Positions 2 through 13,287 of a stretch of DNA of 51,275 nucleotides are shown piece after piece. Both the position numbers and the translations under genes were made by a program. Position 1 is the first letter of the stretch, and every line of letters begins with the position of its first letter. This DNA is from a virus. Location: IMG/VR virus record IMGVR_UViG_3300050119_000272, positions 1 through 51,275 of that record; one strand, written 5' to 3'. Below the pieces are notes generated by a model. That model saw only the letters and a program-made list of their open reading frames with translations, had not been told where the DNA came from and ran no database searches.

Positions 2-229
2 GGCGACCCACTCGAGGCCTACGTCGAGGGCGCCGGTAAGGACGAGAGCGTGACCGAGGCGCGGGGACGCGTGATAACGGAAGCCTTTGAGGTCATCGAC
101 AGGAGGGGAGGCAAACGGTCCTCTTTCATCGAGAGCCTTCGGGACCAGTTCGAAGCGTCCGGCACCCTCAGCGATGCCCAGCGGGAGGCCCTGTTCAGAA
201 ACAGGGACGACCCGAGGTGGAGGACATGA
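2..229 (+). CDS. C-terminal part of an unidentified phage protein (5' truncated)
   Basis: An open frame enters from the left edge and stops at a TGA that overlaps the next ATG (ATGA), the same coupling used throughout this block. The visible 75 residues are charged and helical, ending with a segment like IESLRDQFEASGTLSDAQ. A short 'helix, gly, LSxxQ' tail of this kind is common at the C-terminus of phage replication-block proteins, but no function can be assigned. The N-terminus lies outside the window. Confidence 0.7.
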   Translation, partial: GDPLEAYVEGAGKDESVTEARGRVITEAFEVIDRRGGKRSSFIESLRDQFEASGTLSDAQREALFRNRDDPRWRT

Positions 230-654
230 GCGAGGCCAACTTCTGGCGTGACCTCCAGCCGATCTTCTCCTCCTTCGGGAAGGCCCAGAGGATCGAGACG
301 CCCGTGTCGCTCGGCGTTCCGGACGTGTGCTATGTCTTGACCTGGCGCGGCGTGACGGCCTCTGGATGGGTCGAGCTGAAATGGCTGCCGCGCTTCCCGG
401 TCAAACCAGAAACAGCCGTCGTCATCGACCACCTGACAAAGGATCAGGTCCTCTGGCAGGAAAGCTGGGCCGCCGCTGGAGGGCGGGTCTGCACTCTCCT
501 GAAGGTAGGTAAGATCACCCTCGCCATGACACCCGCCGTGACCCGGGCGGTCCATGAAAGACGGCTGACCGAGAAGGCCCTCCTTGGGGCTGTCGCACCA
601 CGGCTGGCCCACGGAATCCCCGTGAATATGCTTATGGAATGGCTCGTGCAATAA
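226..654 (+). CDS. PD-(D/E)XK-type nuclease (VRR-NUC/Hjc-like)
   Basis: A 142-residue protein. Near the N-terminus it shows SLGVPDVCYVL followed by GWVELKW, which matches the G-x-PD...E-x-K core of PD-(D/E)XK nucleases such as VRR-NUC and small Holliday-junction resolvases. The remaining helical part lacks obvious extra domains. The ATG at 226 overlaps the upstream stop. An in-frame GTG at 217 is possible but less likely. It precedes a helicase and topoisomerase-like genes, so a role in DNA repair, recombination or replication-intermediate processing is inferred. The substrate is unknown. Confidence 0.7.
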   Translation: MSEANFWRDLQPIFSSFGKAQRIETPVSLGVPDVCYVLTWRGVTASGWVELKWLPRFPVKPETAVVIDHLTKDQVLWQESWAAAGGRVCTLLKVGKITLAMTPAVTRAVHERRLTEKALLGAVAPRLAHGIPVNMLMEWLVQ

Positions 655-2228: not shown

Positions 2229-2399
2229 ATGAAGTGGTTGACTAACGATCCAGAAGCTGCCAAGAAGATCATCAAAGCAGATAAGGACTATGCTAAGGCA
2301 AGGGCCGCTGCCGTAGACTTCCCCTTGGCCGAGAAAATAGAGGCCTACCGAGTAGCAAAAGAAGCCCGCGAGATAGCCTATAAGGCGGTGCGCTCATGA
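2229..2399 (+). CDS. Small hypothetical protein
   Basis: 56 residues starting MKWLTNDPEAAKK, behind AAGGAGAACCCAA. Highly helical and lysine/alanine-rich. It is preceded by the promoter-like element and its TGA overlaps the start of the helicase gene (ATGA), which supports it being expressed. No homologue recognised; it may mainly serve as the coupled leader gene of the cluster. Confidence 0.65.
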   Translation: MKWLTNDPEAAKKIIKADKDYAKARAAAVDFPLAEKIEAYRVAKEAREIAYKAVRS

Positions 2400-3925
2400 G
2401 CCCCTCCGTCCACCTCTTCGCCTTCAACACCGTGATCGCCGCCGAGCTGAAGGGCCGCGTCGCGCGGCTTAACCTACCGCCGACTCATCCGGACTACCTC
2501 GCGCCGAGAACGAACCCCTCGCCCTACCAGCAGGCGGTCTTCGCCCACATGAAGAAGCCCCGCTCGCTGATCGTCCGGGCGGTCGCTGGATCGGGAAAGA
2601 CCGACACCTGCGTCCACTCCCTCAAGCACATCCCCGGGATCGACCTCTCCAAGGTCCGGGCCTCCACCTTCCACTCGGTCGGCTTCGGCGCCGTGGCGAA
2701 GAAGCTGAACGTGAAGAAACTGGAGCCGGATTCGGGCAAGGTGATCAAGCTCGCCAAGCAGGCCCTCGGCGAAGACGAATACGACCTCTACGGCGCCTTC
2801 TGCGCCCGCCTGGTCGGTCTGGCGAAGGGCCAGGGGGTAGGTTGCCTGGTGCCGGACGTCGAAGATGTCTGGTACGGGCTGATCACTCATCACGACCTTT
2901 ATCTGGAAGACGAGCGGGCGGAAGACAGCCGTGCGGTTGCGATCGCCAAGGACCTCCTGCGCCGATCCAACGAGGCCGCAAAACAAGGGAGCGTCGACTT
3001 CGACGATCTGCTCTATCTCCCCCTCCTCTGGAGGCTCAGGCTCTGGCAGAACGACGTCGTGTTCGTGGACGAGGCCCAAGACACCAACCCGGTACGCCGG
3101 GCGATCGCTAAGCTCGCGCTCCGGCCGGGTGGAAAACTGGTCGCGGTCGGCGACGAGCGCCAGGCGATCTACGGCTTCACCGGGGCCTCGCACGATGCGC
3201 TGGACCTGATCCGCCAGGAGTTCGACTGCGAGGAGCTTCCTCTGACCGTCTCTTACCGCTGCCCGAAGTCGGTCGGCGAGAAGGCGAAGGAGCTGGTCCC
3301 GTACTTTGAAGTGGCCGATGGAGCGAAGGAAGGTTCCGTCGAGAACCTCCCGCTCAAGGAGGCCCTCAAGGTCCTGACGGCGCACGACGCGATCCTCTGC
3401 AGGCAGACGCGGCCTTTGTTCGAGCTGGCCTTCAAGCTGATCGCCAGCGGGACCGGCTGCGCCATCCTGGGCCGCGACATCGCGAAGGGCCTGACGGACC
3501 TGATCAAGAAGAGGAACGCCTCGGGCCTCCCGAACCTGGTCTCGAAGCTGGAGGTCTTCCGCGATCGGGAGGTGGCCCGCTTCATCGCCAAGGGCGAGGA
3601 GGGCAAGGCCGAGTCCATCGAGGACCGCGTGGCCTGCGTCCTCACCGTCGTAGACAACCTCCCCGAGGCCGAGAGGACGGTCCCCGGCCTGATCAGGAAG
3701 CTGGAGGGGCTCTTCACGGACACGAACGGCGTCCTCCTCCTGTCCACGGTCCACAAGGCTAAGGGCCGGGAGTGGGAGAACGTGGCGATCCTCGAGCCAG
3801 AGCTGGTGCCTTCTAAGTGGGCCCGGCAGGAATGGCAGATGCAGCAGGAACGGAACCTGATGTACGTGGCCTGGACCCGCACGATGGGACGGCTCCTGTT
3901 CCTAACGACGACGGAGGTGAAGTGA
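2396..3925 (+). CDS. UvrD/Rep-like superfamily 1 DNA helicase
   Basis: 509 residues with the SF1A motif series in order: Q-motif NPSPYQQAV (~40), Walker A AVAGSGKT (62-69), motif II VDEAQD (224-229), motif III VGDERQAIYGFTGA (~252-265), motif IV SYRCP, motif V STVHKAKGREW and motif VI MYVAWTR near the C-terminus. It should translocate 3'-5' on single-stranded DNA using ATP. It is shorter than host UvrD, mainly in the 2B region. It lies in one coupled cluster with a DUF2786 protein and the topoisomerase-like pair, so replication or recombination is the expected role. Confidence 0.93.
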   Translation: MSPSVHLFAFNTVIAAELKGRVARLNLPPTHPDYLAPRTNPSPYQQAVFAHMKKPRSLIVRAVAGSGKTDTCVHSLKHIPGIDLSKVRASTFHSVGFGAVAKKLNVKKLEPDSGKVIKLAKQALGEDEYDLYGAFCARLVGLAKGQGVGCLVPDVEDVWYGLITHHDLYLEDERAEDSRAVAIAKDLLRRSNEAAKQGSVDFDDLLYLPLLWRLRLWQNDVVFVDEAQDTNPVRRAIAKLALRPGGKLVAVGDERQAIYGFTGASHDALDLIRQEFDCEELPLTVSYRCPKSVGEKAKELVPYFEVADGAKEGSVENLPLKEALKVLTAHDAILCRQTRPLFELAFKLIASGTGCAILGRDIAKGLTDLIKKRNASGLPNLVSKLEVFRDREVARFIAKGEEGKAESIEDRVACVLTVVDNLPEAERTVPGLIRKLEGLFTDTNGVLLLSTVHKAKGREWENVAILEPELVPSKWARQEWQMQQERNLMYVAWTRTMGRLLFLTTTEVK

Positions 3926-3926
3926 T

Positions 3927-4871
3927 ATGACCAACCAAGCCCCAGAAGAGGTCCTGGAGAGGATCAAGAAGCTGCTGAAGCTCGCCGGGAACAACCCGAA
4001 CGAGAACGAGGCGTCGGCTGCGATGGCTAAGGCCCAGGAGCTGATGGTACAGCACAACCTGGACGCCGGCGCGGTCGAGCGCGGCGCCTCAGAACCCGGC
4101 AAGCGGGCCGAGGAGATGGTCGAAGGCGGCTTCTATCAGTACCAGCAGGAGCTGTGGGAGGCGATCGCACGGCTCAACTTCTGCATGTACTGGTCTCAAA
4201 AGGAGATACGCGAGAGGGGTCCTGACGGCTACCGCCGGGACAAGCAGGGCCGCATCTCACGGACCTTCCGCAGGCACAGGCTTCTCGGATCGAAGCTGAA
4301 CGTCGCCACGACCGTGGCGATGGCCCAGTATATGGAAGGGGCTATCGAGCGGCTCACGCGCGAGGAGTTCCCCGGCCGGAAGCTGGACAACTATGTGATG
4401 AGCTTCCGTCAGGGCATGGCCTACCGGCTGTGCCAGAAGCTCCGCGAGCGCCGGATGGACAACCTGGCGAAGGAGCAGGCCGCCGCTGAGGACGCCCTGA
4501 AGCGGAAGGGCGTGTCAACGGCGACAGCTCTCACGCTCTCGACTCTGAAGGAGCAGGAGGACGCCGCCAACTACGACCACGAATACGGCGAGGGTACTTG
4601 GGCCCGACGGAAGGTCTACATGGTCAAGGCCGCTGAGGAGGCGAGGATCAGGAGAGAGGCCTACACGAAGTGGGCCGCCGAGAACCCGAAGGAGGCTGCA
4701 CGCGAGGAAGAGAAACGTCGGAAGCAGGACGAGCGGGCAGATCGTTCTGCAGCCAACCAGCGCTTCGGAAAGGTGGACAACGGCGCCTTCTGGCGCGGAG
4801 CCGACAAGGCCAAGGCCATCGGCATCGACCCTCAAGCCTCATCGCAACCCGTCAAAGGGAGACTCAAATGA
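3927..4871 (+). CDS. DUF2786-domain phage protein
   Basis: 314 residues. The first 45 (EVLERIKKLLKLAGNN..ASAAMAKAQELMVQHNLD) match DUF2786, a short helical domain common in phage and plasmid proteins of unknown function. The middle (KLNVATTVAMAQYMEGAI...SFRQGMAYRL) resembles the partner region usually found with it. The C-terminal third is very basic and helical. It starts 1 base after the helicase stop and its own stop overlaps the Topo VI A-like gene, suggesting a shared DNA-processing role. Confidence 0.85.
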   Translation: MTNQAPEEVLERIKKLLKLAGNNPNENEASAAMAKAQELMVQHNLDAGAVERGASEPGKRAEEMVEGGFYQYQQELWEAIARLNFCMYWSQKEIRERGPDGYRRDKQGRISRTFRRHRLLGSKLNVATTVAMAQYMEGAIERLTREEFPGRKLDNYVMSFRQGMAYRLCQKLRERRMDNLAKEQAAAEDALKRKGVSTATALTLSTLKEQEDAANYDHEYGEGTWARRKVYMVKAAEEARIRREAYTKWAAENPKEAAREEEKRRKQDERADRSAANQRFGKVDNGAFWRGADKAKAIGIDPQASSQPVKGRLK

Positions 4872-5758
4872 CCGGCACATTCATCCGCTACAAGGACCTG
4901 AATCCGCGAGCAGATAAAATGAACCTCATCCGGCTGGCGGCCTCGCTGCTGGAGCCCGCCGAGGCGGCTGGCGACGTGATGACCGTCCGCCAGCTGCACT
5001 ATCAGTTCGTCTCGAAGGGTTGGTACCCGAACACGATGGAGAGCTACAACCTGCTCAAGGATGCCGTCTCGGACGGCCGTGTGTGCGGCCTCCTCTCCTG
5101 GACGGCGATCGAGGATCGTACCCGTGCCCTTCAGGGCCGGCGGACCTGGAACGGCCCCGCCGACGCCGTGAAGGACATGCGGTCGCGCTACCTGCGCGAC
5201 CTCTGGGCCACGCAGCCGATCCGTCCTGAAGTATGGGTAGAGAAGGAAGCGATGGAGGGTGTCGTAGCCCAAGCCTCGCACGCCCTGCGCGTCGACTTCT
5301 TCTGCGTCCGTGGTTACGGCTCCAGCTCGGCCCTCTGGGAGGCCGGCCAGCGCATGGCCTCCTACGTCCAGAAGGGCCAGATACCGATCGTCTTCTACCT
5401 CGGCGACCACGACCCCTCAGGCCTGCACATGGCCGTCGACATCCGTGAGCGGTTGGAGCTGTTCGCCGGCACGCCGATCCAGGTCGTTCGCATCGGCCTG
5501 AATATGGACCAGATCAAGAAGTACAACCCGCCGCCTAACCCGGCGAAGAAGACCGATAGCCGATTCCTCTCCTACCAGCGGGAAACCGGGCTCGACGAGA
5601 GCTGGGAGCTTGACGCCCTCCCGACGAACGTCATCCGCTCCCTCATCGCGAACTCGGTCCACAAGGTCACGGACGTCGCCCTCTGGGACGAGGCGCTGGC
5701 CCAGGAAGCCGACGACAAGGAGACCCTTGACGAGGTCATGAAGGAGATGGGACGATGA
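4868..5758 (+). CDS. Topoisomerase VI subunit A / Spo11-like protein
   Basis: 296 residues; the ATG overlaps the upstream stop. An N-terminal winged-helix-like part carries TVRQLHYQFVSKGW, aligning with the R-E-x-Y-Y active-site motif of Topo VI A/Spo11 and making Y45 the candidate DNA-cleaving tyrosine. A TOPRIM fold follows, with WVEKEAMEGV (E125) and YLGDHDPSG (D180, D182) as metal ligands. It is shorter than cellular Topo VI A (about 350-390 aa), like the reduced 'mini-A' type IIB proteins of mobile elements. Its direct neighbour is a GHKL-like ATPase, as expected for an A-B pair. Activity is inferred, not shown. Confidence 0.8.
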   Translation: MTGTFIRYKDLNPRADKMNLIRLAASLLEPAEAAGDVMTVRQLHYQFVSKGWYPNTMESYNLLKDAVSDGRVCGLLSWTAIEDRTRALQGRRTWNGPADAVKDMRSRYLRDLWATQPIRPEVWVEKEAMEGVVAQASHALRVDFFCVRGYGSSSALWEAGQRMASYVQKGQIPIVFYLGDHDPSGLHMAVDIRERLELFAGTPIQVVRIGLNMDQIKKYNPPPNPAKKTDSRFLSYQRETGLDESWELDALPTNVIRSLIANSVHKVTDVALWDEALAQEADDKETLDEVMKEMGR

Positions 5759-6948
5759 TCGCAGTCGTGTTCGAAACCCCTGGCCTGATAGATATGCGGG
5801 CCTTCACTGTGATGGGCGCCCATGCGAAGCCAAACACGGATGCCCCGATCGGCATATTCGGAACCGGCCTCAAGTATGCCCTGGCCACGCTTATACGCGA
5901 GGGGGCCGAGGTCGTGGTCTTCGTAGGCAGGGACCGCTTCCGCTTCACCCCGTATGCCTCGACCTTCCGGGGCGAGCCGATGGAGACGATCAAGATGTCC
6001 CGTCTGAAGGAGAGCAACGTCAAGGAGACCCACCACGAGCTGCCTTTCACGACCCGTATGGGGAAGAACTGGAAGCCCTGGATGGCCTACCGGGAGCTGG
6101 CCTCGAACACCTTCGACGAGGGCGGCAGGATATGGGTGGATAACGATGCCAGCACCCCTGACGACCGGGGCTGCGTACGCGGGGGCTGGTACGGCGATGT
6201 GGGCTGGCTCAACGGCAACGAGGGTCGTACCAGGATCGTGATCAAGCTGAAGGAGTTCTTCGACGTCCACGAGGGCGGCGAGCAGGTCTTCCTAAAGGAC
6301 GGCCTCCGCTCAGGCAAAGGCATCCAGGTTTTGCTCGGCGAGAGCGAGCACCTCTTCTGGCGCGGCATGCGTGTGCTCGACCTCCCGAAGCCGAGCCTCT
6401 TCACCTACAACATCCTGGACCCGATCGAGCTGACCGAGGATCGCACGCTGAAGTACGAGCACCAGGCCCGTCACGCCATCGCAAAGTGGGTGGTCGGAAC
6501 AGCAACGGCCGACCAGGCCGAAGCCGTCCTAAAAGCGAAAGAGGATAGCTGGGAGAGCGTTCTTGATTTCCCGGGCTGGGCTATGCCCACCCCAAGCGCT
6601 GCCTTTAAGGAGGTCCTAACCGAGCGCCGGGGCTCCCCGAAGCCTGACCACGGCGCAGAGTTCGACCGTAGGACAACGCTCTCGGGTCCTATAGTTTCAG
6701 GTCGTATCTCCCGGTCAGCATGGTCCTTCTTCGCCCCTCACGCCGCCAGGGACCGGCCCCGCCGGGTCACGGTGGAGTCGCCCTGGAAGCTCTCCGACGC
6801 CCACCCACGCCCGTGGCGGGTGGAAGGTCTGGAGGTCCTGGACCACACCGGTAACGCCGTCTTCGCGGCCCCGGAAGGCTACTACGACGACTGGGAGAGG
6901 ACGGCCCAGGGGATCGTGGACCGTGTGAACATAGGGATGACAAAATGA
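5755..6948 (+). CDS. GHKL-like ATPase, possible Topo VI B-type partner
   Basis: 397 residues, ATGA-coupled to the Topo VI A-like gene. Residues 31-42 (PIGIFGTGLKYA) look like the glycine box that closes the ATP lid in GHKL ATPases. Residues 112-124 (YRELASNTFDEGG; E114, N118, D121) look like the N-box E-x3-N-x2-D. The N-box normally comes first, so the order appears permuted. The downstream half has mixed alpha/beta character without a recognised transducer domain. Similar unnamed proteins occur in phages and plasmids. Partnership with the upstream protein is inferred from coupling and fold logic. Confidence 0.65.
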   Translation: MIAVVFETPGLIDMRAFTVMGAHAKPNTDAPIGIFGTGLKYALATLIREGAEVVVFVGRDRFRFTPYASTFRGEPMETIKMSRLKESNVKETHHELPFTTRMGKNWKPWMAYRELASNTFDEGGRIWVDNDASTPDDRGCVRGGWYGDVGWLNGNEGRTRIVIKLKEFFDVHEGGEQVFLKDGLRSGKGIQVLLGESEHLFWRGMRVLDLPKPSLFTYNILDPIELTEDRTLKYEHQARHAIAKWVVGTATADQAEAVLKAKEDSWESVLDFPGWAMPTPSAAFKEVLTERRGSPKPDHGAEFDRRTTLSGPIVSGRISRSAWSFFAPHAARDRPRRVTVESPWKLSDAHPRPWRVEGLEVLDHTGNAVFAAPEGYYDDWERTAQGIVDRVNIGMTK

Positions 6949-7199
6949 TCGAACCAGAAAAACCCTACACCACAAAGCCTCATCATTATGAGATCGGCGA
7001 CCGAGTGTCCTGCCGTGAGACCGGCCTCGCCGGCGTCGTCGAGGACTGGACGATCGCCAGGAACGGGAACGGCCGCCCTTCTATAGCCAAGGCCCGGAAG
7101 TACGCCGTCAGGATGGCCGATGGCCGGCTGCTGCACTTCCTCCGGCGCGGGCTCCTCCCCCTGGCTCCGCTGGCCGATGGGTCAGGGGGTGGGTCTTGA
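6945..7199 (+). CDS. Small hypothetical protein
   Basis: 84 residues, ATGA-coupled to the GHKL gene. The segment YEIGDRVSCRETGLAGVVEDW resembles a small SH3-like barrel; the C-terminus is glycine/serine-rich. No family recognised. Confidence 0.65.
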   Translation: MIEPEKPYTTKPHHYEIGDRVSCRETGLAGVVEDWTIARNGNGRPSIAKARKYAVRMADGRLLHFLRRGLLPLAPLADGSGGGS

Positions 7200-9312: not shown

Positions 9313-9726
9313 TTAGCCGTGATAGTCGGCCATGACGGCAGAGCCGTCGAGGGACGTCAATCGGTCCATGCAGAGGACCAAGGATGTGATGGACTTTTCG
9401 CCGGTCAGGTCATATCCGCCGACTATGCCGCCAACTAGGCCGGCACCGGCGCCGCCGACGATCACCAGCGGATTGATGACGGCAACCGCGCCATTGTTTG
9501 TTGCGCCGTTCACCGTACCGCTAGCGACCGCTCCGATGTCCGGCAACGACGAGAGGCCGTCTATAGCTGAATGACATTCCTGTAGATCGGCGTTGTATTG
9601 GGCCTGATTGTTTAGACGGGCCCATACCGGGATATAATTTTTAGATGATGGCAGCACGAAGGCTGCGCAACCTCCGAGGAGGAGCGGGGCGGCAAGGAAC
9701 AAGGCTCTAGCCGCCCCGCGCCGCAT
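9313..9726 (-). CDS. Lipoprotein with glycine-zipper segment
   Basis: 137 residues with a lipoprotein signal (LFLAAPLLLGGCAAF, lipobox LGGC) and a later glycine-zipper-like stretch (VIVGGAGAGLVGGIVGGYDL). Glycine-zipper lipoproteins of this sort sit in the outer membrane of Gram-negative bacteria. In the lysis cassette it may serve lysis or superinfection exclusion. It is coupled to the upstream gene by TGATG. Confidence 0.6.
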   Translation of the reverse strand: MRRGAARALFLAAPLLLGGCAAFVLPSSKNYIPVWARLNNQAQYNADLQECHSAIDGLSSLPDIGAVASGTVNGATNNGAVAVINPLVIVGGAGAGLVGGIVGGYDLTGEKSITSLVLCMDRLTSLDGSAVMADYHG

Positions 9727-10109
9727 CAGGCGCCCGCCGCTTGCTTGGCCGCAGCCGCCGCGGTCTGGATCGAAGTGACCGCTGCATTGACGCCGTTGAC
9801 AACGGTGCCGAGGCCGATCTGTTCCGTCCCGGTCACAAGGCTAGCGCCTACCTGGGTCACTAGGCCACCAACGACCTTGGATTGGTCCGCGATGTTGCCG
9901 GAGGTCAGAGCGGTCAGCTCGTCTTCCGCCAGCGTCGGCAGGGCACTCTGGACCGCAGAGGCCACCAGGGCGGTCTCCTGCTTTGCGGCGGTTGCCGCAT
10001 CGCCTTCCAGCGTGCCGAACAAGCTGGAACCCCAGCTCTCAAGATCGGCCACGATGTTGGCATACCATGGGTGGGACGCGCCAACCGCAACTTTTGCTGC
10101 TGAACTCAT
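9726..10109 (-). CDS. Alanine-rich hypothetical protein
   Basis: 127 residues, alanine- and threonine-rich, mostly helical (AAKQETALVASAVQSALPTLA), with no signal peptide. A good SD (GGAGAG) precedes the ATG. No family recognised. Upstream of it are about 140 bases (10110-10251) without a supported gene. Confidence 0.6.
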   Translation of the reverse strand: MSSAAKVAVGASHPWYANIVADLESWGSSLFGTLEGDAATAAKQETALVASAVQSALPTLAEDELTALTSGNIADQSKVVGGLVTQVGASLVTGTEQIGLGTVVNGVNAAVTSIQTAAAAAKQAAGA

Positions 10110-10251
10110 GACAATTCTCTCCGTGGTTCACATTACTGCATCGCACCATGCGCCGCAGTGGTGGAGCCCTCCCCCGACAGGCTGCCCTTCGCTTCGGCAC
10201 CACGGATGGGACCGATGATCTGGACAGCGAACGTCGCTGGAGGGCTCCCCG

Positions 10252-10470
10252 CTAAGGCGCCGGTGTCTTTGTGATGACCAAGCCGCCCAGGAGGCCGACA
10301 AAGCAGCCTATGACGGTCTGGAAAGAAGGTCCGATAATGGCAAAGATTTCCTTATTGTCCACGGCCGGCGTAAAGAGGCCGGCTAGAAGGACAAAGACGA
10401 CAGACATCACGACGACCGCGAGTGTGATAATTACGATCTTAAAGATGAAGCTACGGTCATTGTCGTTCAA
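10252..10470 (-). CDS. Holin-like two-span membrane protein
   Basis: 72 residues from a TTG that overlaps the endolysin stop (TTGA); a longer frame from 10539 would overlap the endolysin by 73 bases. Two hydrophobic spans (IVIITLAVVVMSVVFVLLAG and TVIGCFVGLLGGLVI) flank a short acidic loop. Size, topology and position directly after the endolysin fit a holin that releases the lysozyme across the inner membrane. It could also be an antiholin. Confidence 0.65.
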   Translation of the reverse strand: MNDNDRSFIFKIVIITLAVVVMSVVFVLLAGLFTPAVDNKEIFAIIGPSFQTVIGCFVGLLGGLVITKTPAP

Positions 10471-10940
10471 GGGGCGGCCCCGCCACTCCGGATCACGGAG
10501 ACCAGGCGAACCCCCCTGGTCCCTACCTGCTTGTACCATGGCGTCGTCATAAGATCATCGGCGGCCGTCCCATATTGGCCGGCCTGGACCAAGCCTAGGA
10601 AAGTGGTGAACTGCTCCTCACCGTGGTCGCCGAGGTTATAGGCCATGTCCGCAAGGGCTCGTTGGATCGGCTCCGGCAGGTCCGCGACCCACGGGAGGTC
10701 GGCCTGGAGCTTCGCATCTATCGCCGCCGCGCGAGAGGTCAAGATCGGCAGGCTCTCTGCTTGGGTAAGCGGGCTGACATCTAGAGCAAAGCCGTATCCG
10801 CCAGTCGGATGGCCCACCAGCGTATAGCCGGGTACGACCGCCTTACGGGTCGCGTCATCATAAAGGGCTGGCCGACCGTTGATCAGTTTAAAACCTTCGT
10901 CGCCCTGCAGATCGGCAACGAGAAGCGCAAGATCGGTCAC
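10467..10940 (-). CDS. Endolysin, T4-type lysozyme (GH24)
   Basis: 157 residues from a GTG. LQGDEGF gives the catalytic glutamate (E15), and GHPTGGYGFALD matches the (P)T-x-GYG motif with T46. MAYNLG and a C-terminal TPWYKQVGTRGVRL are both hallmarks of phage GH24 muramidases. There is no signal peptide, so it should depend on a holin. It lies between a tail-fibre assembly gene and the holin-like gene. Confidence 0.9.
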   Translation of the reverse strand: MTDLALLVADLQGDEGFKLINGRPALYDDATRKAVVPGYTLVGHPTGGYGFALDVSPLTQAESLPILTSRAAAIDAKLQADLPWVADLPEPIQRALADMAYNLGDHGEEQFTTFLGLVQAGQYGTAADDLMTTPWYKQVGTRGVRLVSVIRSGGAAP

Positions 10941-11203
10941 GGAAACACTGGGCCGGTCGGCAGCGTGGCATTGGCCACCGGGCTATCGATCATCGCGCGA
11001 AGCGCCTGCCGGTAGGTCGCCCATGCGGACGGAATCGCACTGCCGCTTTCCAGATATTGTAGCAAGACTTTGTCGGACTCGTTGTGCGCGTCGGACGCAA
11101 GCCATTGTATCCAGTCCGGGTCGGTAAGGTCATTCTGGATGACCTTTTTATCGCTCACGCGAATAACGTAGAAAGTGCTTCGGATGAAAGCTGGAATACC
11201 CAT
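10937..11203 (-). CDS. Putative tail-fibre assembly chaperone-like protein
   Basis: 88 residues. The C-terminal part PSAWATYRQALRAMIDS...LPTGPVFP carries the W-x-x-YR-x-ALR...P-x-P pattern of small proteins next to phage tail-fibre genes, often called tail assembly chaperones. It directly follows the fibre genes and is coupled to the endolysin. Role inferred from motif and position. Confidence 0.55.
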   Translation of the reverse strand: MGIPAFIRSTFYVIRVSDKKVIQNDLTDPDWIQWLASDAHNESDKVLLQYLESGSAIPSAWATYRQALRAMIDSPVANATLPTGPVFP

Positions 11204-11220
11204 TTTTCTATCTCCGTATT

Positions 11221-13287
11221 CTAGTAATACAGCTTGACATAGGCCCCGCCACCAGTCCCACCAGACACGATGCCTGCCGTGAGGCTGATAGAGCCGCCCG
11301 CGCCGCCGCCGTAGCCCGTAGCATTGCTTCCGTTGACGCCCGTGGCGGATGTGATGGTAACGGCCTGGCCGCCCATGCCGAAGGGCGTGCTGCCACCCGC
11401 TCCACTGCTGTCCCAGGCTGTTGCACCACCGGAATTTGAAAATGGTGTTTGGCCTGCCTGCGATCCCGCACCGGAACTTGCGGCACCAAGCGTAGCTTCA
11501 TTGGCCGCGCTGAGGCTCCCTAACCCGCCGGTCAACGTGAGAAGCGTGGTGGAGGTAGTCGTGTCCACAATGGTGACGTTACCGCCATTTCCGCCTTGGG
11601 CTATGTCTGTTCCCGCCGTGCCTGCCGCTCCACTGGTAATCGTTATGGTGTCACCTGGGTTTACAGAAAGCGCTTGCCCGACAACGCTCATGCCGCTGGA
11701 TGCGCCGCCTGTTTCGCCGGGTGTTACGGCGACGCCGCCGCTGCCGCCGCCGCACGCCGTCGCATCCGCGTATATGGTGGTGACGCCGGTCGAGACGGTT
11801 AGCGTAGTCGAGCTCGTCCCGGTATAGATTTCATAACCGTGTGGCGCAGCAGCGGCCCCGCTAACGACAGTTTGAACAAAGGCATCCGTCGCCACCTTCG
11901 TCGTATTGTCGGTCGATGTCTGCGTGGTCGCGGCGGTGCCATTCGCAAGCGCGGTGGAAACTGATGGCGTGCCGCTGGCATATTGCTGAAGACCGGTTGC
12001 CGATGAATTGTTCGCCCCGGTACCTCCATTGGCGACATTGATAGAGCCGGATTGCGTTGAGGAGCCAAAATTGAGCGTGAAGCCCGCGCCGGTCGCGCCG
12101 GAAGTCAACGTGCCGGTGCCGGTGATCAAGGATGGTGTGACGACGCCTCCGGTCGTCGTCACGACGAGCGTGCTGTTCCCGGTCAGGCCGTAGGGCTGGA
12201 AGCTGCCCGCGCCGGTCGCGCTCAGTGCGGTCAGGACGTTGCCCGCGCTCGACGTTCCGCCGTAGGCCGCGAAGCCGCCGCCGGTCGCGCCGAGGAGTAT
12301 GTCTGCGCCGACGCCCGATGTGTCGGTCAAGGTCTTTCCGGCTGCTATGGTGAGGGTGCCGGTGCCGGCGGTGAAGGTGTTGCCGTTGAAGGTGCTCGCT
12401 GTCAGACCAAGCGGGTGAGCGACGACGCCGCCCCCGGAGATCGTAAGAGCCGCCGTGGCTGCGTTCTGAGCGGTCCCGCTCGACCCGGACGGATGCACAT
12501 AGAATGAATATCCGCCGGAGGACGCATTGCCTGTCCCGGAGCTATCATAAACTTTGAGCATCGAGCCGGCCGTGTTTGATGTCCCGGCGACGACGTTCTG
12601 TACTGAGAGTGTCTGCGCGACCGGCGCGGCGGCGTCCGGCGCACCGAAGCGGATGTCAGCTGGTCCCGCCCGTTCAAGGAGAACGTCGCGGACCGCGTTT
12701 CCGGGCCCGAAGGCGACCGACGGGACGTCTGTGCTGTTGAGGCCAACGCGGACACGAGCGTCGGCGTCACCGGCGATCTGTGCGTACCAGCCGGGCTGCG
12801 TAGTCGTCAAACCCTGATCGGTCTGGAGAGCGGTCCAGGTGTTGGCGTGAGCGACGTTCAGGGATGCTATAACGTTTCCGGCGGTGGGCGATACGGCCAA
12901 GGAGCCGTCGCTGTTCGAGACCGAAAGGACGTCGCCGGCCGAAGAGGACAGCTGGACCGTCGCGCCGTTCAGGCGAAAGAATAGCCCCGTGGCGGTCGAC
13001 CACATGTCGCCGTTGATCGGGCTGGAGGGGCCGGCGACCCCAGGCTGAAGATTTAGGCTTGCGGCGACAGCGCTAGGGACCGAGGTGAACAGCTCACCCT
13101 GCATGGTATCACCGGCCCTGTTGACGGGCGTGTAGCCTAGGACGTTCTGCTTCGAAGCGAAGCAGGCCTGCCACTGCGCGGCCGTTAGGACTGCACCATA
13201 AACAATCGGAGGCGAGCAGTTGCTTTGCGCGAAGGCGGCGGACGCCCACCAGAGTAAAAAGATAAGGCCGAGGATTATTTTTTTCAT
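11221..13287 (-). CDS. Tail fibre / receptor-binding protein with N-terminal signal-like segment
   Basis: 688 residues. It begins with an apparent signal peptide (KKIILGLIFLLWWASAAFA). LGYTPVNRAGDTMQGEL, a classical phage tail-fibre motif, follows at ~50-70. The long middle is low-complexity Ser/Thr/Gly/Ala beta-rich sequence. TSTDNTTKVATDAFV comes at ~460, and the last ~190 residues are very glycine-rich, as in tip adhesins such as T-even gp38-type proteins. It should bind the host receptor. A cleavable export signal is odd for a virion protein assembled in the cytoplasm. Confidence 0.8.
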   Translation of the reverse strand: MKKIILGLIFLLWWASAAFAQSNCSPPIVYGAVLTAAQWQACFASKQNVLGYTPVNRAGDTMQGELFTSVPSAVAASLNLQPGVAGPSSPINGDMWSTATGLFFRLNGATVQLSSSAGDVLSVSNSDGSLAVSPTAGNVIASLNVAHANTWTALQTDQGLTTTQPGWYAQIAGDADARVRVGLNSTDVPSVAFGPGNAVRDVLLERAGPADIRFGAPDAAAPVAQTLSVQNVVAGTSNTAGSMLKVYDSSGTGNASSGGYSFYVHPSGSSGTAQNAATAALTISGGGVVAHPLGLTASTFNGNTFTAGTGTLTIAAGKTLTDTSGVGADILLGATGGGFAAYGGTSSAGNVLTALSATGAGSFQPYGLTGNSTLVVTTTGGVVTPSLITGTGTLTSGATGAGFTLNFGSSTQSGSINVANGGTGANNSSATGLQQYASGTPSVSTALANGTAATTQTSTDNTTKVATDAFVQTVVSGAAAAPHGYEIYTGTSSTTLTVSTGVTTIYADATACGGGSGGVAVTPGETGGASSGMSVVGQALSVNPGDTITITSGAAGTAGTDIAQGGNGGNVTIVDTTTSTTLLTLTGGLGSLSAANEATLGAASSGAGSQAGQTPFSNSGGATAWDSSGAGGSTPFGMGGQAVTITSATGVNGSNATGYGGGAGGSISLTAGIVSGGTGGGAYVKLYY

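Follow-up and report, generated by a model that had tools for sequence, protein, structure and literature searches.

The window is the whole IMG/VR virus record IMGVR_UViG_3300050119_000272, 51,275 bases long and without end repeats. Its gene content marks its source as a contractile-tailed phage: the window annotation places tail sheath, baseplate, portal and terminase genes on the minus strand, and primase and helicase genes on the plus strand. An early plus-strand block opens with a small protein of a PHROG helicase family and continues through a UvrD-like helicase, a DUF2786/DUF7168 protein, protein A and protein B to an 84-aa ORF (Table 1). Pfam and PHROG searches with this last ORF gave no family match at E < 0.1.

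As the initial annotation had observed, proteins A and B are encoded by two coupled ORFs spanning 4868-6948; A has the size it gave, and the two ORFs overlap in ATGA at 5755-5758. Both ORFs are genuine genes, since each belongs to a conserved protein family with tens of phage relatives. The A-B junction is, however, one of three successive 4-bp overlaps, the others joining DUF2786 to A (4868-4871) and B to the next ORF (6945-6948). Translational coupling alone, therefore, does not mark out A and B as a pair.

Table 1. Genes and motifs of the early plus-strand block, in window coordinates
Feature	Position	Strand	Basis or remark
Small PHROG helicase-family protein	217-654	+	Early block
UvrD-like helicase	2396-3925	+	Early block
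DUF2786/DUF7168 protein, 314 aa, phrog_421	3927-4871	+	Pfam DUF2786, E 4.7e-16
Protein A, predicted Mini-A (Topo VI-A/Spo11-like cleavage protein), 296 aa, ATG start	4868-5758	+	phrog_6247, fold
A: Y45, presumed catalytic tyrosine, winged-helix part, codon TAT	5000-5002	+	Invariant in 72
A: E125, TOPRIM glutamate	5240-5242	+	Invariant in 72
A: D180-H-D182, TOPRIM DxD	5405-5413	+	D180 and D182 invariant in 72
Protein B, predicted circularly permuted GHKL-like ATPase, 397 aa, ATG start	5755-6948	+	phrog_8203/phrog_6077, motifs, model
B: G1-like strand and loop, residues 5-13, VFETPGLID	5767-5793	+	First strand of model
B: G2 motif, residues 31-45, PIGIFGTGLKYALAT	5845-5889	+	HtpG G2 and MORC G2 matches
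B: N-box, residues 110-124, MAYRELASNTFDEGG, placed after G2, not before	6082-6126	+	HtpG N-box match, hhalign
B: LTEDRT motif, residues 226-231	6430-6447	+	Invariant L226, E228, R230
ORF overlapping the end of B, 84 aa	6945-7199	+	ORF call

Protein A and the Mini-A family

A match to phrog_6247, 'DNA topoisomerase', covers the whole of protein A (E 1.2e-87). The protein shares ~54% identity with proteins from Rhizobium phage RHph_TM26 and from Pseudanabaena phage Pam3, and 38% identity over 288 aa with the Mini-A of Pseudomonas phage NP1, a protein given as a Mini-A example in a review (PMC7614492). Reviews describe Mini-A as a short homologue of the type IIB A subunit that is found in mobile elements and has no known function. 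The AlphaFold2 model of A (pLDDT 93.6) pointed to the same group of enzymes. The top three Foldseek matches were Topo VI-A, with Methanosarcina Topo VI-A supplying the only matches with E < 0.001. VIA likewise placed Topo VI-A first (Z 11.5), at the head of a list of Topo VI-A, JetD-type nucleases, small TOPRIM proteins and Spo11 with Z from 11.5 to 9.2; most of these rows span residues 99-268.

Alignment of 72 Mini-A proteins revealed seven invariant residues: R41, Q42, Y45, E125, K126, D180 and D182. Y45, E125, D180 and D182 had all been singled out in the initial annotation, and each lies where it was placed. The accompanying claim that A is Topo VI A/Spo11-like also holds, given the phrog_6247 match, the resemblance to the NP1 protein and the leading Topo VI-A fold match. 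A JetD/Wadjet nuclease was considered for A and rejected: PADLOC JetD2 matched over the TOPRIM part only (E 0.0084), and the phrog_6247 match is far stronger. A is thus a typical representative of the phage Mini-A proteins already known, and this identity is not new. Mini-A itself is related to Spo11 and Topo VI-A and has hardly been characterised. In a separate record, L010, Mini-A is split into two ORFs (5953-6901), with a frame break or stop between the N- and C-terminal parts.

Neither A nor B had a significant match in Pfam, NCBIfam or PDB sequences, whether searched as a single sequence or as a profile; for both proteins the informative evidence comes only from folds and motif segments.

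Motif order and fold of protein B

In known GHKL proteins, the N-box precedes G1 and G2. Protein B rotates this order, with G1, lid and G2 at residues 5-45 followed by the N-box, RELASNTFDE, at residues 113-122. In the model of B (pLDDT 86.5), a G1-like strand (residues 3-9) opens the protein, and the N-box helix (residues 108-121) is followed by a strand at 125-129. On the simplest reading of the model, the permutation cut would fall in the turn that separates the strand following the N-box from the G1 strand.

Comparison of the B model by VIA returned GHKL proteins at every rank from 1 to 37, with Z of at most 6.4, below 8. These matches comprised TRAP1/Hsp90 (TRAP1, Z 6.4), MORC2/3/4 (MORC2, Z 6.0), Topo VI-B, a part of which aligns with B (Z 5.0), GyrB/ParE (GyrB, Z 4.8), and the topoisomerase II of phage T6 and ASFV. 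Alignments to the topoisomerases and MORC proteins begin with B residue 1 opposite chain residue ~54-106, just past the N-box. Foldseek against the PDB gave no match with E < 0.001.

We also compared segments of B with known sequences. A profile of residues 1-62, run against 177,635 PDB sequences, ranked MORC4 and MORC2 highest, matching precisely at G2, although E was no better than 0.4-1.3. The N-box segment by itself, as a profile or a single sequence, returned unrelated PDB chains only. Against E. coli HtpG, the best match of the B G2 block was residues 119-133, the HtpG G2 (shuffle P 0.003), and the best match of the N-box block was residues 30-44, the HtpG N-box (shuffle P 0.038). Unlike HtpG, GyrB did not align to the B motifs. 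When an alignment of B was set against ten HtpG proteins with hhalign, B 113-121 aligned with HtpG 33-41 (RELASNTFD/RELISNASD, P 0.011) and B 20-45 with HtpG 109-133 (P 0.048), all remaining alignments having P >= 0.63. The order of these two best alignments is reversed between the proteins.

Four lines thus bear on the permutation: the VIA alignments to GHKL proteins, the MORC profile match at G2, the HtpG motif blocks and the reversed hhalign order. Each is weak alone, and together they are good evidence, from sequence and model, for predicting that B is a circularly permuted Hsp90/MORC-like GHKL ATPase. The earlier description of B as GHKL-like is upheld by the 37 best VIA rows and by the MORC and HtpG motif matches. 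The permuted family is the unexpected and more novel part of the analysis; in the literature searched, we found no description of it, nor any passage that connects circular permutation to GHKL, Bergerat or HATPase ATPases. If a widespread phage GHKL family is so permuted, it would represent a natural permutation of a textbook ATPase fold, and the permuted order would explain why B-family proteins escape the Pfam GHKL models.

Three blocks are among the residues kept unchanged across 69 relatives of B, with invariant G21, K25, G33, F35, G36, G38 and K40 in the lid and G2 block, R113, E114, N118, D121 and E122 in the N-box block, and L226, E228 and R230 in the LTEDRT block. LTEDRT might provide the catalytic loop in a domain resembling a transducer. 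An E114A mutant had been proposed in the initial annotation; it suits B, where E114 is the N-box glutamate and is invariant in 69/69, and does not suit A. Position 8, which we infer to be in register with the adenine-binding Asp of G1, is N or T in 69/69. The apparent change of this usual Asp to Asn or Thr would fit B being a nucleotide-independent scaffold and not an ATPase, but we consider such a scaffold unlikely: an N-box with E, N and D and a glycine-rich G2 are kept in 69/69, and invariant E114, N118, D121 and E122 together with G33, G36, G38 and K40 would imply a maintained nucleotide site.

The PHROGs that B matches, phrog_8203 and phrog_6077 among them, are all of unknown function, and Foldseek retrieved further uncharacterised phage proteins that share its fold. 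An EExxH motif, mostly LIEEFLH-like (e.g. LIEEFLHLRH), occurs at the C terminus of about 29/69 B proteins, and the clade of the window lacks it. Record L060 encodes, 0.8 kb after Mini-A, a protein (9788-11230) that combines a HATPase_c domain in canonical order, a weak match scoring under the Pfam cut-off, with a HEFTH motif at its C terminus; a divergent B follows it. This HATPase_c/HEFTH protein, whose C-terminal motif is metallopeptidase-like, is perhaps an unpermuted counterpart of the B architecture. With these variable C-termini, Hsp90/MORC-like ATPase is a better description of B than topoisomerase subunit. In record L011, a close relative of B (6001-7071) carries an in-frame TAG near its C-terminal end, beyond which homology resumes; the TAG reflects recoding, error or decay.

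Occurrence of A, B and DUF2786 across phages

In a cultured-phage set of 50,697 records, A was present in 71 and B in 71, and among the matches listed (all but a few of each 71) no phage had both. In IMG/VR, where many records are fragments or of unknown completeness and absence is not proof, B was found in 4/51 records of the A sample (one of these chosen by B and lacking A) and in 1/11 records of an added sample, and A in 3/54 B records, one with a C-terminal remnant of A only. The records holding the window's three nearest B relatives, L011, L093 and L095 (support 0.98), are 68-72 kb long and contain no A, and B is missing from 10/14 records of the window's Mini-A clade. A canonical HATPase_c was detected in 2/50 Mini-A records at E 0.01 and in 0/50 above the Pfam cut-off. 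Across the six phages with both genes, A and B identities did not correlate (Mantel P 0.76, n=6). Co-occurrence, set beforehand as a test that could refute the pairing, is thus weak, with most A found without B and most B without A. In L096, a C-terminal Mini-A remnant without the catalytic tyrosine (9646-9864) lies downstream of B.

B is nonetheless enriched in one group: 4/14 records of the DUF2786-Mini-A clade carry it, compared with 0/47 of the remaining Mini-A records that were searched whole (Fisher P 0.002, with no correction for relatedness); L060, a shorter record, is a further case of A with B. The order DUF2786-A-B on the same strand is found in the window, L024 (0.26 kb gap), L103 (~1.1 kb) and L203 (2.4 kb). 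The shared gene pool of related phages explains the enrichment without physical partnership, and a facultative functional A-B link within the DUF2786-Mini-A clade is possible.

The same enrichment and four-phage gene order, with the ATGA overlap and the VIA alignment of the region past the GHKL-like domain of B with Hsp90, MORC and Topo VI-B, would suit a two-subunit type IIB topoisomerase in which a non-orthologous B, the permuted GHKL protein, forms an ATP-dependent dimer and controls DNA cleavage or strand passage by the Mini-A dimer. Such an enzyme is improbable in our judgement, as it has to contend with closest B relatives that lack A, clade members with Mini-A and no B (10/14), uncorrelated A and B divergence, a B model without a long stalk helix, and the many B proteins that end in a different, EExxH domain. 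We see a slim chance that Mini-A has, in some phages, recruited a permuted Hsp90/MORC-like ATPase as a non-orthologous B subunit; this would constitute a new form of type IIB topoisomerase or a controlled double-strand-break enzyme.

The initial annotation had gone further, taking B for the matching B-type partner of A. Topo VI-B contacts the winged-helix domain of A through a hairpin that ends a long stalk (PMC13040014). The B model contains no long C-terminal stalk helix; its longest helix has 14 residues, and residues ~300-340 are of low confidence. PF09239, the Topo VI-B transducer, had no match in the whole record at E 1 or better, although VIA aligned B with part of Topo VI-B (Z 5.0), and the canonical order of N-box, G1 and G2 is absent, the N-box of B coming after G2. 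A Topo VI-B orthologue was rejected on motif order, the missing stalk and distribution, and the matching-partner claim is not supported, in view of the permutation, the Hsp90/MORC-like character, the stalkless model, the lack of a transducer match and the loose pairing. A different phage gene acting as the real B was also considered and rejected, neither PF09239 nor PF13589 having a match anywhere in the record.

Throughout the window's Mini-A clade, A is preceded by DUF2786, in many cases overlapping it by 4 bp; in RHph_TM26 and Pam3, DUF2786 is the gene immediately before A. In L101 and L102, it sits directly upstream of B with no A. Outside the window's clade, most Mini-A records have no DUF2786. 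The constant attached gene of this Mini-A clade is DUF2786, not B, and the DUF2786 protein is a concrete candidate partner of Mini-A. Its clade-wide position and the L101 and L102 arrangement would accord with a module in which Mini-A works with the DUF2786/DUF7168 protein and B is an optional third component; we find this module improbable, with most Mini-A records outside the clade doing without DUF2786.

Interpretation and comparison with known systems

The best explanation, and one we hold to be likely, is that A is a stand-alone Mini-A and B an independent permuted GHKL ATPase, encoded by two adjacent but separate early phage genes. Because each mostly occurs without the other in viruses, A and B are probably not halves of one enzyme. 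The B family is independent and widespread in phages. Judging from the genomes, Mini-A probably works without this ATPase, and since it normally travels without a recognisable ATPase, stand-alone cleavage becomes the hypothesis to test.

Under this explanation, A would act on its own as a dimeric type IIB cleavage enzyme. If it works as Topo VI-A and Spo11 do, DNA held at the metal site of one subunit (E125, D180, D182) would be attacked by Y45 of the other, and these hybrid active sites would yield a Spo11-like, protein-linked double-strand break with 5'-phosphotyrosyl linkage. Mouse SPO11 cuts through hybrid active sites as 2:2 complexes with TOP6BL, leaving 5'-phosphotyrosyl breaks (PMC11922745). 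The neighbours of Mini-A are a ligase, a Sak4-like annealing protein, a Cas4-type exonuclease and a helicase in NP1, and polymerases, RecT, RecE and helicase in other phages; this gene context suggests a role in replication or recombination. A would need no ATPase subunit of its own, and the breaks that it makes would serve recombination or replication of the phage DNA.

B keeps similar company, with ligase, exonucleases and Sak4/RecT/Erf annealing proteins as neighbours. As these are DNA-processing genes, B may take part in the same processes as a switch powered by ATP. Its N-box helix follows G2 in sequence yet should still fill the ATP pocket, and B would probably act as a conformational switch, driven by ATP, within the same DNA-processing gene set.

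Compared with Topo VI/VIII, A has the Topo VI-A fold and B comes from the same ATPase superfamily as Topo VI-B. The differences are that the motif order of B is rotated, its motifs are Hsp90/MORC-like, it has neither a PF09239 match nor a modelled stalk, and A and B are mostly found apart. With Hsp90/HtpG and MORC, B shares the N-box RELxSNxxD and the G2 IGxFGxG, and its first two domains, as modelled, align structurally; it differs in its permuted order, in a G1 Asp that is apparently N/T, and in its other C-terminal parts. The phrog_8203/phrog_6077 proteins (e.g. Yua gp29), annotated as unknown function or HATPase, are the family of B, although many of them end in an EExxH-containing domain that the window B lacks. 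Finally, A resembles the Mini-A proteins of phages and archaeal viruses (e.g. NP1) in size, winged-helix tyrosine, TOPRIM E/DxD, phage location and phrog_6247 membership, in genomes generally without a canonical GHKL gene, and it differs from them only in the GHKL-like gene directly downstream and the DUF2786 gene upstream.
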